DNA of 64,000 nt. It comes from Gammaproteobacteria bacterium (GTDB taxonomy: Bacteria > Pseudomonadota > Gammaproteobacteria > GCA-001735895). Below, piece after piece: positions 20,958-23,521 of this stretch. A model generated the notes under the pieces. The model did no database searches. It saw nothing but the letters and a program-made list of their open reading frames with translations, and was not told the DNA's origin. Location: positions 1-64,000 of the forward strand of contig JALSKD010000179.1 in NCBI GenBank assembly GCA_026989015.1, read 5' to 3'. The translations under genes were made by a program, and so were the position numbers. The stretch's first letter is position 1, and each line of letters starts with the position of its first letter.

Positions 20958-21533
20958 ATGGCCGTTTCCGACATGGGCAATCGCCTCTCGCGCATCATCA
21001 CCGGCACCGGCGACGCCGGAGAAACCGGCCTGGCCGATGGCTCGCGCTGCCGAAAGTCCTCGCCACGCATCGAAGCCCTGGGCGAACTCGACGAACTGAA
21101 CTCGATCATCGGCCTGGCCCGCGCGGCCATCGATGACACGGAGGCCGGCGAAGTGCTGTTGCAGATCCAGCACGACCTGTTCGACTTGGGTGCCGAACTC
21201 TGTCAGCCCGAAAAACGCCTGATCGGCGGGGACTATCCCGACGCCCTGACCCGCCAGGCCGAAGCCCTCAACGCCAGATTGCCGCCGCTGCGTGAATTCA
21301 TCCTGCCCGGCGGCAGCGAGGCGCTGGCCCGCCTGCACCTGGCCCGCAGCGTCAGCCGCCGTGCCGAACGGGCGCTGGTGCGGCTGGCCGATACCGAGAC
21401 CGTCAACGGACATACCCTCGCTTACCTGAACCGGCTGTCGGACCTGCTGTTCATACTCGGACGCCACCTGGCGCAAGAACTGGGTCTGCGGGAAGAACTC
21501 TGGCAGCCCGCCCGTTCCCGGACTAGATCCTGA
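20958..21533 (+). CDS. PduO-type cob(I)alamin adenosyltransferase
   Basis: Attaches the adenosyl group to cob(I)alamin, making coenzyme B12. The protein is about 186-191 residues and all helical. The N-terminal ATP-binding signature [15 protein letters not shown] is clear, except that the usual Arg before TGD is Gly (ITGTGD). Downstream motifs are [50 protein letters not shown] and [13 protein letters not shown]. Two ATGs are plausible (20958 and 20973); homologues tend to begin at the second, MGNRLSRI, and neither has a strong Shine-Dalgarno. It diverges from metH. Its 3' end overlaps the convergent flavoprotein by 11 bases. Confidence 0.92.
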
Positions 21534-22521
21534 TCAGGGTATCGATGCGCCAGTGACGGTCGTCGATTCCGGCATCACGAAAGCGTTGTTCGGCGATTTG
21601 TCGGTAGGTTTCCGGCAGGGTCAGGTACACATCGGAAAACTTGATGGCAGGCTCCTGAACGAGGATCTTGCCGATCACCGCATCGATGCACTGATCCGAG
21701 GGTTCGCGGATGGCGATCGGGAAATAGCGGATATTGTCCATTGCGTCTTCGATCGACCGGCAGTAATTCTCGCGGTAGGGCGTGTGATTCGGTGTCACCA
21801 CCCAGTAGAGGTGGATGATCTGCGGCTTTTCCAGCGCGATGGCATGCTCGATCAGGCTCTTGATGCTCGCAAAGCCCGTGTCATAGGCAATGAACACCAG
21901 CGGACGCGTGCCGTCGTCATCGAGCACGAAATCCCCCCAGGGACCGGTCAGGCCGACCCGGTCGTTCTTCTTCAGTCGATGGAAGACATGTTCGCTGAAG
22001 GCGTCCCCCGGCCGGTACTTGACATGAATTTCGGGTTTCAGGCCGTCGCAGGGGCAACTGGCGATGGATTTGTTGCGTGACAGGCCATCACCCAGCTCTA
22101 CCGTCACATGCTGCCCGGCAAGAAACTGCAGCGGCTGGCTGCGCGGGGTCTTGAGCAGCAGCTGCATGACATCATCGGACAGGCGTTCCATGCGGTAGAC
22201 GCGCGCCTCGATCTGCTGTTGCGGTATCTCGCGCGGGCTCCCGACCTCGTCGGCCTGGATCACGCAGTCGCTTCTTGGCGAATTGATGCAGGCAAGAAAC
22301 TGTCGATTGGCCTTTTGTTGCGGACTGAGCAGGTAATCGGAGAAGCGTATGGCGCCGATCTCGCCTTCGACCAGACGGGCCAGGCAGTCTCCACAGCCAC
22401 CGGTTTCGCAGCCGTAGTGCAGGTTGATGCCGTGTTCGAGCGCCGCATGCAGGAAGCTCTGGTGCTCCGAGCAGTCGAATTCATGCCCGCTGGGCAGGAT
22501 GCGCACCCTATGCGTGGGCAT
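21523..22521 (-). CDS. [2Fe-2S] ferredoxin-FAD/NAD oxidoreductase-like protein with altered motifs
   Basis: A 332-residue protein. Residues 1-95 are a plant-type ferredoxin domain with Cys38, Cys43, Cys46 and Cys78 (GCETGGCGDC then ACINSPRSDC). Residues about 103-205 resemble the FAD domain of ferredoxin reductases and about 206-310 the NAD domain, close in layout to CDP-6-deoxyglucoseen reductase (AscD). The usual flavin motif RxYS is RNKS (149-152). The nucleotide loop GGTGFAP is YDTGFAS (213-219), so cofactor use may differ. It lies 36 bases behind the HTH/coiled-coil gene, which suggests an operon. The substrate is unknown, and a sugar role should not be assumed. Confidence 0.82.
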   Translation of the reverse strand: MPTHRVRILPSGHEFDCSEHQSFLHAALEHGINLHYGCETGGCGDCLARLVEGEIGAIRFSDYLLSPQQKANRQFLACINSPRSDCVIQADEVGSPREIPQQQIEARVYRMERLSDDVMQLLLKTPRSQPLQFLAGQHVTVELGDGLSRNKSIASCPCDGLKPEIHVKYRPGDAFSEHVFHRLKKNDRVGLTGPWGDFVLDDDGTRPLVFIAYDTGFASIKSLIEHAIALEKPQIIHLYWVVTPNHTPYRENYCRSIEDAMDNIRYFPIAIREPSDQCIDAVIGKILVQEPAIKFSDVYLTLPETYRQIAEQRFRDAGIDDRHWRIDTLIRI

Positions 22522-22557: not shown

Positions 22558-22995
22558 TCAGCCCCGGCACTGCCGGTACTGGTGCATCATCCAGCCGATG
22601 AAGGCCGCCAGGGTCTGCTTCTGCTGCCGATCGCAGTGCTTCTGCATTTCCTCCAGCCGCGATTTGCTTTCCATCAGCAGGCGTTCGTATTCGCCAATCT
22701 TGAACTGGGCCTGCTGCAGGCGAATCTGCAGCCGGTTGACCTGGTCCATCAGCGACTGTTCCGAAGGCACGATACCGGTAAAGGCCTTGTGTATCGCCTC
22801 CTGCTGAATCCGCGCCACCCGCTGCAGTTCCCGTTCGTTGTCGAGTTCTGTCTGAGGGTAGAGTTTGAGCAGGGATTCGACCGTGACATCGCCTTCGAAG
22901 ACATCCAGCTTGCCCTGTTTGATGTCCTGTTGTATCTGCCGGCGACTGATGCCGGCGAGCTTGGCGGCGCGCGCCAGATTGAGGTGGTGTTCCAT
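22558..22995 (-). CDS. HTH (MerR/excisionase-like) and coiled-coil putative regulator
   Basis: A 145-residue protein that I do not recognise by name. Residues about 6-48 form a winged-helix or MerR/excisionase-like HTH (LARAAKLAGISRRQIQQDIK, then a wing KLDVFEGDVTVESL). Residues about 55-125 are a long coiled coil (QVNRLQIRLQQAQFKIGEYE is typical). The C-terminus is Trp/Met/Cys-containing (WMMHQYRQCRG). The ATG at 22995 follows AGAGA. Its promoter region contains an array of CCCAT/ATGGG inverted repeats, one inside the -35/-10 spacer, so it may repress itself and the flavoprotein gene behind it. Confidence 0.78.
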   Translation of the reverse strand: MEHHLNLARAAKLAGISRRQIQQDIKQGKLDVFEGDVTVESLLKLYPQTELDNERELQRVARIQQEAIHKAFTGIVPSEQSLMDQVNRLQIRLQQAQFKIGEYERLLMESKSRLEEMQKHCDRQQKQTLAAFIGWMMHQYRQCRG

Positions 22996-23110
22996 GGGTT
23001 TCTCTGTGTTTTACCACAACAGGTATAACCCCATGGGGAGAGTTTATCAAGGCGAGAATACCCATAAATGGGTAGATCATCGAAAGATTCGATGGGTCAG
23101 GGCACCCCAT
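22991..23110. repeat. Array of CCCAT/ATGGG inverted repeats (candidate operators)
   Basis: Four sites occur in 120 bases. They are CCATGG at the start codon (22992-22997), CCCCATGGGG (23029-23038), TACCCAT-AA-ATGGGTA (23059-23074), and the imperfect ATGGG...CCCAT pair between 23092 and 23110. The centres of the last three are about 33-35 bases apart, near three helical turns. The second site fills the spacer of the predicted promoter and the third abuts its -35 side, as expected for a repressor. Confidence 0.6.
23022..23050 (-). promoter_or_regulatory. Predicted sigma-70 promoter of the HTH-flavoprotein operon
   Basis: On the minus strand TTGATA (23045-23050) and TATACC (23022-23027) are exactly 17 bases apart. 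The palindrome CCCCATGGGG lies in the spacer. The start would be near 23015, giving a leader of about 20 bases before the ATG at 22995. Confidence 0.6.
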
Positions 23111-23119
23111 CAACAGCGC

Positions 23120-23521
23120 TTATACGGAGCCGGAGTTGTCCCAGGCAAAGGCGCAATCGAGTTGGGAACGCACCCGAATCAGCCCGGACAGCCCTTCCTC
23201 CACCATCACCTGTATCGGTGTACGGCCGTCGAAACGCTTGTGCGGTTTGCGCAGCCACAGGTTGCACATCTCCACATTACGCGGGTAGGTGGTGCGCAGG
23301 GCATCGGCGATGCCAACGATATGCTCGAGGTGTTCGTTGACGGTATCGGTGTCGGGGAAGGGCTCGTTCTGGCGAAAGCGGTCGAGCTTGCGCGCCTTGA
23401 CTTCGCCATCCAGGCCGAGCAGGACGACCTTTTGTTCGCCGGAGGTGCCCCAGCTGTCGAGCAGCGACATGATGTGCTTGGTGAGCAGAACCCTTCGTTC
23501 GGGCGTCATGGATTCGGACAT
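23120..23521 (-). CDS. MbcA/ParS/Xre-type toxin-binding domain protein, no toxin adjacent
   Basis: A 133-residue protein. The C-terminal half (LWLRKPHKRFDGRTPIQVMV, then EEGLSGLIRVRSQLD) matches the antitoxin Xre/MbcA/ParS-like toxin-binding domain (formerly DUF2384). The N-terminal half (residues about 6-60) is helical and could hold the Xre-like HTH. In toxin-antitoxin loci this domain partners a RES-domain toxin, but no RES gene lies on either side. A TATACT (minus strand, 23554-23559) may be its -10 box. It may be a stand-alone regulator; the assignment rests on the C-terminal motif. Confidence 0.72.
   Translation of the reverse strand: MSESMTPERRVLLTKHIMSLLDSWGTSGEQKVVLLGLDGEVKARKLDRFRQNEPFPDTDTVNEHLEHIVGIADALRTTYPRNVEMCNLWLRKPHKRFDGRTPIQVMVEEGLSGLIRVRSQLDCAFAWDNSGSV

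Follow-up and report, generated by a model that had tools for sequence, protein, structure and literature searches.

A conserved pair of predicted operator dyads at the promoter of a winged-helix/coiled-coil protein gene in Gammaproteobacteria

Overview

The cluster of CCCAT/ATGGG repeats at positions 22991-23110 of the window (the whole 64-kb stretch of DNA that was analysed) is real and, judged from sequence comparison, is a conserved paired operator, which we redefine as a 16-bp dyad of the approximate form TATCCC-N4-GGGATA. On the same grounds, CCCAT/ATGGG is a local variant of that dyad. Our preferred reading, to which we assign a probability of slightly above one half, is that this is an autoregulatory region, where the 145-aa winged-helix protein encoded beside it would bind two dyads (sites A and B) and cooperatively repress both its own gene and a reductase gene. 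What the computation shows is a conserved dyad motif, spaced in a regular way and placed consistently with respect to the promoter, that is associated with the free-standing form of the helix-turn-helix (HTH) gene.

The case is most likely one of autoregulation of an uncharacterised HTH family tied to a reductase, that is, a familiar kind of control in a new setting. It offers a specific predicted DNA target for an HTH family that is widespread in Gammaproteobacteria, and both gene order and gene fusion tie this family to a flavin/iron-sulfur reductase; the pairing and fusion of the two proteins are the most interesting part. The features discussed are collected in Table 1.

Table 1. Features at and around the array, in window coordinates
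Feature	Position	Strand	Description
Reductase gene	21523..22521	minus	Fer2 + FAD-binding reductase; next gene downstream of the HTH gene
HTH gene	22558..22995	minus	145 aa; predicted N-terminal winged helix-turn-helix (MerR/Xis type) + long coiled coil; candidate binder and autoregulator
Start-codon repeat	22992..22998		CCATGGG across the start codon; not conserved (AATCATGG etc. in relatives); listed in the earlier note
-10 element	23022..23027	minus	TATACC; position kept, TATAAG/TATAAA in orthologues
Putative operator site B	23026..23041		TCTCCC-CATG-GGGTTA on the minus strand; centre ~-18.5, in the spacer, overlaps the -10
-35 element	23045..23050	minus	TTGATA; TTGCCA, TTGATT, TTGAAT etc. 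in orthologues
Putative operator site A	23059..23074		TACCCA-TTTA-TGGGTA on the minus strand; centre ~-51.5, 33 bp from B
Distal pair	23092..23110		ATGGGT...CCCAT, opposite layout; not conserved; listed in the earlier note
Xre/MbcA/ParS-type gene	23120..23521	minus	133 aa; Xre/MbcA/ParS C-terminal domain (PF09722, 5.2e-7); conserved upstream neighbour

The array and its promoter

An earlier note on this DNA had described an array of four inverted-repeat sites wrapped around a promoter, and the words are indeed there: 22991-23110 holds seven CCCAT/ATGGG words, more than any other 120 bp of the window, while 60 dinucleotide shuffles of the whole window gave maxima of 3-6 and never seven. Nor is the repeat common at random across the genome, the exact pattern CCCAT-N0-2-ATGGG occurring only five times in 2.9 Mb. 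The palindrome said to occupy the 17-base spacer between TTGATA and TATACC (23028-23044), CCCCATGGGG, indeed lies within it (23029-23038) as the core of site B. A strict consensus promoter scan made no call for TTGATA-17-TATACC, but orthologues keep both the place of the -10 and the 17-bp distance, with TTGCCA-17-TATAAG, TTGATT-17-TATAAA and the like at the same place.

The second palindrome, TACCCATAAATGGGTA (TACCCAT-AA-ATGGGTA), is present exactly at site A, but it does not touch the -35 as had been supposed, since 8 bp separate the two. More generally, the description of four sites with one half-site survives in half: A and B are good dyads, whereas at the start codon there is no more than CCATGG plus ATGGGT, and the halves of the distal pair are laid out the other way round. 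These two are not conserved and, as far as the comparison of sequences goes, are probably incidental. Three centres had also been placed about three helical turns apart; the centre-to-centre spacings are 39, 33 and ~34 bp, and relatives share only the 33 bp between A and B. A further perfect dyad, CATCGAA-AGA-TTCGATG (23078..23094), is unrelated to the CCCAT motif and is shared by the same-genus relative alone.

Conservation of the dyads among relatives

Close comparison covered one other genome of the same genus and four of the sister genus. At the position of site A these five genomes carry dyads of changed sequence (CTATCTCTTATGGGGTAG, CTATTACTTAAGTGATAG, CTATTACTAAAGTAATAG, TATCACTTTAGTAATAG and TATCACTTTGGTAATAG), and the two arms have changed together, from TACCCA/TGGGTA to TATTAC/GTAATA; family f57 has CTATTACCAAGGGGATAG together with TTGCCCTTAAGGGGTAA over its -35. 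The search for the repeats upstream of orthologues, proposed earlier, thus finds dyads at the same promoter positions with both arms altered in step, but not as literal CCCAT/ATGGG. As a conserved unit the CCCAT half-site is ruled out, because orthologues retain the dyad positions and not that sequence; the conserved type is TAYCCC/TATYAC, and the half-site drifts strongly among relatives.

In the alignment of these sequences, eight in all, 82.8% of cells pair in register, compared with at most 58% after sliding by one to three columns, and four of the eight pairs are altered on both sides. Set against within-column shuffles, the pairing percentage is unexceptional (99/500); fairly high values are seen for the number of pair types (11/500) and for the covariation score (29/500).

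Similar dyads are found further afield. A TATCCCNNNTGGG-type dyad stands before the free-standing gene in f142 (genus g311, eight genomes, plus G181) and in f154 (G303). In f142 it is placed just downstream of a TATACT/TATAAT -10; the G303 contig ends before its -10 would show. A symmetric matrix was built from only the ten TATCCCNTTTGGG sites of f142 and f154 and scored on held-out upstream regions, some of them from lineages in which the motif had first been spotted by eye. Values of p between 0.0025 and 0.025 were reached in four families: 0.0075 in each of the two genomes of this genus, 0.010-0.013 in f57, 0.0025 and 0.010 in f63 (with a third region at 0.07) and 0.025 in f118 (with another at 0.38). 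The sister genus on its own was not significant with this matrix (p 0.12-0.14). When the 64-kb window itself was scored by a matrix trained on other families, site B ranked first and site A eighth.

The motif goes with the HTH gene in its free-standing form, though not in every lineage: the matrix scan detected none at the free-standing genes of f43, f103, f110, f127, f132 and some of f142. It is absent where the HTH protein is fused to the Fer2/FAD reductase. The upstream regions of 53 long HTH genes, most of them fused, include a single one at p<0.05, nothing beyond chance, and operators of this type at fused HTH-reductase genes are rejected on that result.

Spacing of the paired sites

With the best site held fixed, the score of the second-best site was profiled over spacings of 17-69 bp. 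The highest mean scores fell at 33, 35, 34 and 32 bp, followed by 63 bp, about double. Taking one representative per lineage and a 4-base window, the excess at 32-36 bp exceeded that of all 300 shuffled sets under two choices of lineages (p<1/301), with the proviso that the lineage sets were partly picked after inspection and that the 33-34-bp spacing had been seen by eye in two families beforehand, making the test not fully blind. In a broader lineage set, including lineages with no evident motif, second sites at 32-36 bp gave p=0.01. Genus g311 yielded no second site at the 33-bp spacing. Within the 64 kb of the window, A and B form the best pair spaced by 30-37 bp, scoring 21.1 against 13.1 for the best pair outside the region.

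Matches elsewhere in the genome

As a marker of a genome-wide regulon the motif is ruled out: 23 places match with at most one mismatch, compared with 34 for a reversed control. This lack of enrichment suggests, at the level of sequence, local autoregulation rather than a large regulon. Exact matches number three, all apparently intergenic, with ~3 expected. One of them, TACCCCCATGGGGATATAC, lies between dsrA-like (NIR_SIR) and TauD-family genes (G000:C53:67925-67940) in the layout CCCCATGGGG-N-TATAC, the same as at the window promoter; this site may be a second target, or may have arisen by chance. About 2.4 kb from it, an intergenic match with one mismatch, TACCCCCTTGGTGATA (G000:C53:70285-70300), follows a gene with a product end that by eye resembles DsrC. 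Another exact match sits in the dyad CTATCCCAAATTGGATAG (G000:C20:7531-7546), between a purC-like (SAICAR_synt) gene and a divergent gene that is purE-like by eye.

The HTH/coiled-coil protein and its reductase

The AlphaFold model of the 145-aa protein (pLDDT 81, pTM 0.41) predicts a winged helix with a long coiled coil behind it, and the nearest solved folds returned by Foldseek are HiNmlR (MerR family), phage Xis, RacA and BldC, all at E of at least 0.02, with none significant and high whole-chain rmsd. A Pfam search gave no match above the cutoff, no MerR model at E<=1 and no family pointing to DNA binding, while a search of solved structures by sequence returned coiled-coil noise only. 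Among 95 near relatives, 31 have a homologue; in a sample of 369 genomes from the class, 63 do. Among 25 aligned free-standing homologues, C121 near the end of the coiled coil is an invariant cysteine, and a reductase gene is adjacent in many genomes. One sister-genus genome (G014:C205) has lost the HTH domain together with the promoter and the operator region; only the last 39 codons of the gene remain, and the Xre/ParS-type gene is intact.

The downstream protein matches Fer2 (5.5e-14) and FAD_binding_6 (3.3e-8) in Pfam. HTH homologues come in two forms, either free-standing at ~145 aa, often with the reductase gene behind, or as a single chain of ~490 aa fused to the reductase; in two sister-genus genomes no reductase follows the HTH gene within the stretch examined. 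The in-frame fusion of the HTH/coiled coil to a Fer2/FAD reductase is seen in many Gammaproteobacteria (loci L008-L027, L057, L061-L069 and L093-L125), and a few genomes (G303, G412 and G485) carry a free-standing and a fused-length copy together. In the literature searched, no system matched either the HTH/2Fe-2S reductase fusion or the dyad motif.

Proposed mechanism and its alternatives

The earlier proposal of a cooperative-repressor operator, with the adjacent HTH protein as putative binder, fits in so far as the dyads, their promoter positions and their spacing are conserved; its half-site was wrong and two of its four sites drop out. In the form preferred here, dimers of the 145-aa protein would sit on both 16-bp dyads, A at about -51 and B at about -18, which face almost the same side of the helix, and contacts through the coiled coil would aid joint binding, a cooperativity suggested by the distance of about three turns between the dyads and by the coiled coil of the protein. 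Once occupied, B, which lies in the spacer and reaches into the -10, would block RNA polymerase; repression fits because B takes up the site of the polymerase, and other families have a site just downstream of the -10. In this way the protein would curb the production of both itself and the Fer2/FAD reductase encoded behind it, and the signal may be redox in nature, because the reductase is encoded alongside. The identity of the binder, repression, cooperativity, co-transcription of the two genes, the transcription start and any signal are the parts of this mechanism that we infer.

The binder could instead be the Xre/MbcA/ParS-type protein of the upstream gene, controlling the HTH-reductase genes. 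Its Pfam domain, its position as upstream neighbour to the HTH gene across several families, its presence in every motif-bearing genome checked and its absence from six g3 genomes checked (three with the fused HTH form) speak for this. Yet in f63, f142 and f154 the Xre/ParS-type gene lies elsewhere while the motif remains at the HTH gene, and the HTH protein is favoured as binder for that reason. Upstream of the Xre/ParS-type gene itself, 2 of 30 regions reached p ~0.05 or less, none beyond chance, and that protein is also present in two genomes (G164 and G088) whose HTH gene is fused and showed no motif upstream; overall we regard control by the Xre/ParS-type protein as unlikely. Less probable again is MerR-style activation by the HTH protein from site B, in which A would play an accessory part. 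The MerR/Xis-like predicted fold and a dyad between -35 and -10 would suit it, but the sites downstream of the -10 in f142 and f63 suit repression. MerR-type promoters have a spacer of 19-20 bp; the spacer here has the normal 17 bp rather than the long MerR type, so untwisting of that kind is not needed, and of the marks of the MerR family a sequence match and an elongated spacer are both lacking, the dyad lying in a spacer of 17 bp.

A CsoR/RcnR-type metal sensor is a more doubtful binder still. In its type-1 operators a GC tract stands between TATCC/GGATA-like arms in the spacer, and the Mesorhizobium NreA operator, TATCCYCtccrgGRGGATA, does sit between -35 and -10, with two operators close to one another reported for the family (PMC12724321). 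The NreA arms are set as TATCC-N9-GGATA (19 bp) as against TATCC-N6-GGATA (16 bp) here, a difference of three bases; AT-rich relatives drift to TATTAC/GTAATA and lose the central G/C tract of type 1, and no metal-efflux gene is recognised beside the site. Finally, it is very improbable that the repeats act as RNA hairpins, whether as a terminator of the upstream gene or as a leader structure. The arms could pair as RNA with some G-U pairs, and the f142 dyad lies downstream of its -10; against this, site B falls within the promoter itself, whose transcripts would not include it, and a 33-bp phasing would be meaningless in a terminator. An intrinsic terminator is ruled out, the scan having found no terminator-like site (GC-rich stem plus T run) at the array.

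A bolder extension of autoregulation by the 145-aa protein is that it makes up, together with the Fer2/FAD reductase, a redox-linked transcription switch of an undescribed sort, in two chains in some lineages and in one in others, in which electron flow through the reductase, perhaps acting at Cys121, would control winged-helix binding to TATCCC-N4-GGGATA dyads phased three turns apart; we hold this to be unlikely as it stands. If the protein does bind, it becomes of interest why an electron-transfer enzyme should carry a DNA-binding domain, and why the fused forms have no such operator.

Comparison with known systems

The Fer2 + FAD layout of the downstream protein is that of MmoC/BenC-type oxygenase reductases; unlike these, it falls far below the curated cut-offs of all named members and is linked or fused to an HTH domain. 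The predicted N-terminal fold of the 145-aa protein comes nearest, in Foldseek hits short of significance, to those of HiNmlR (a MerR-superfamily winged helix without a sensor domain), phage Xis, RacA and BldC, and the MerR type also comes with a coiled coil; in contrast to that group, there is no significant sequence match, the spacer is 17 bp and the operator is another one. NreA of Mesorhizobium offers a parallel at the DNA level, where a TATCC...GGATA dyad in the promoter spacer mediates repression (PMC12724321), a dyad of the type seen here, but its site is 19 bp long with a G tract, its binder is an unrelated CsoR/RcnR metal sensor and its target is a nickel operon.

In function, a comparison can be drawn with HspR of Helicobacter pylori, a MerR-family autorepressor whose dyad overlaps its own promoter and for which a cooperative spread of dimers to flanks over more than 70 bp has been proposed (PMC6102357). 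The present case differs from HspR and its HAIR motif in the motif and the target genes, in having a second recognisable dyad at a fixed spacing and in lacking a MerR Pfam match. As in autoregulated tandem-dyad repressors of the HspR-like functional class, like dyads are phased about three turns apart around a promoter and are kept in orthologues. As with HspR itself, a dyad lies over the gene's own promoter, and cooperative binding is proposed in both cases.
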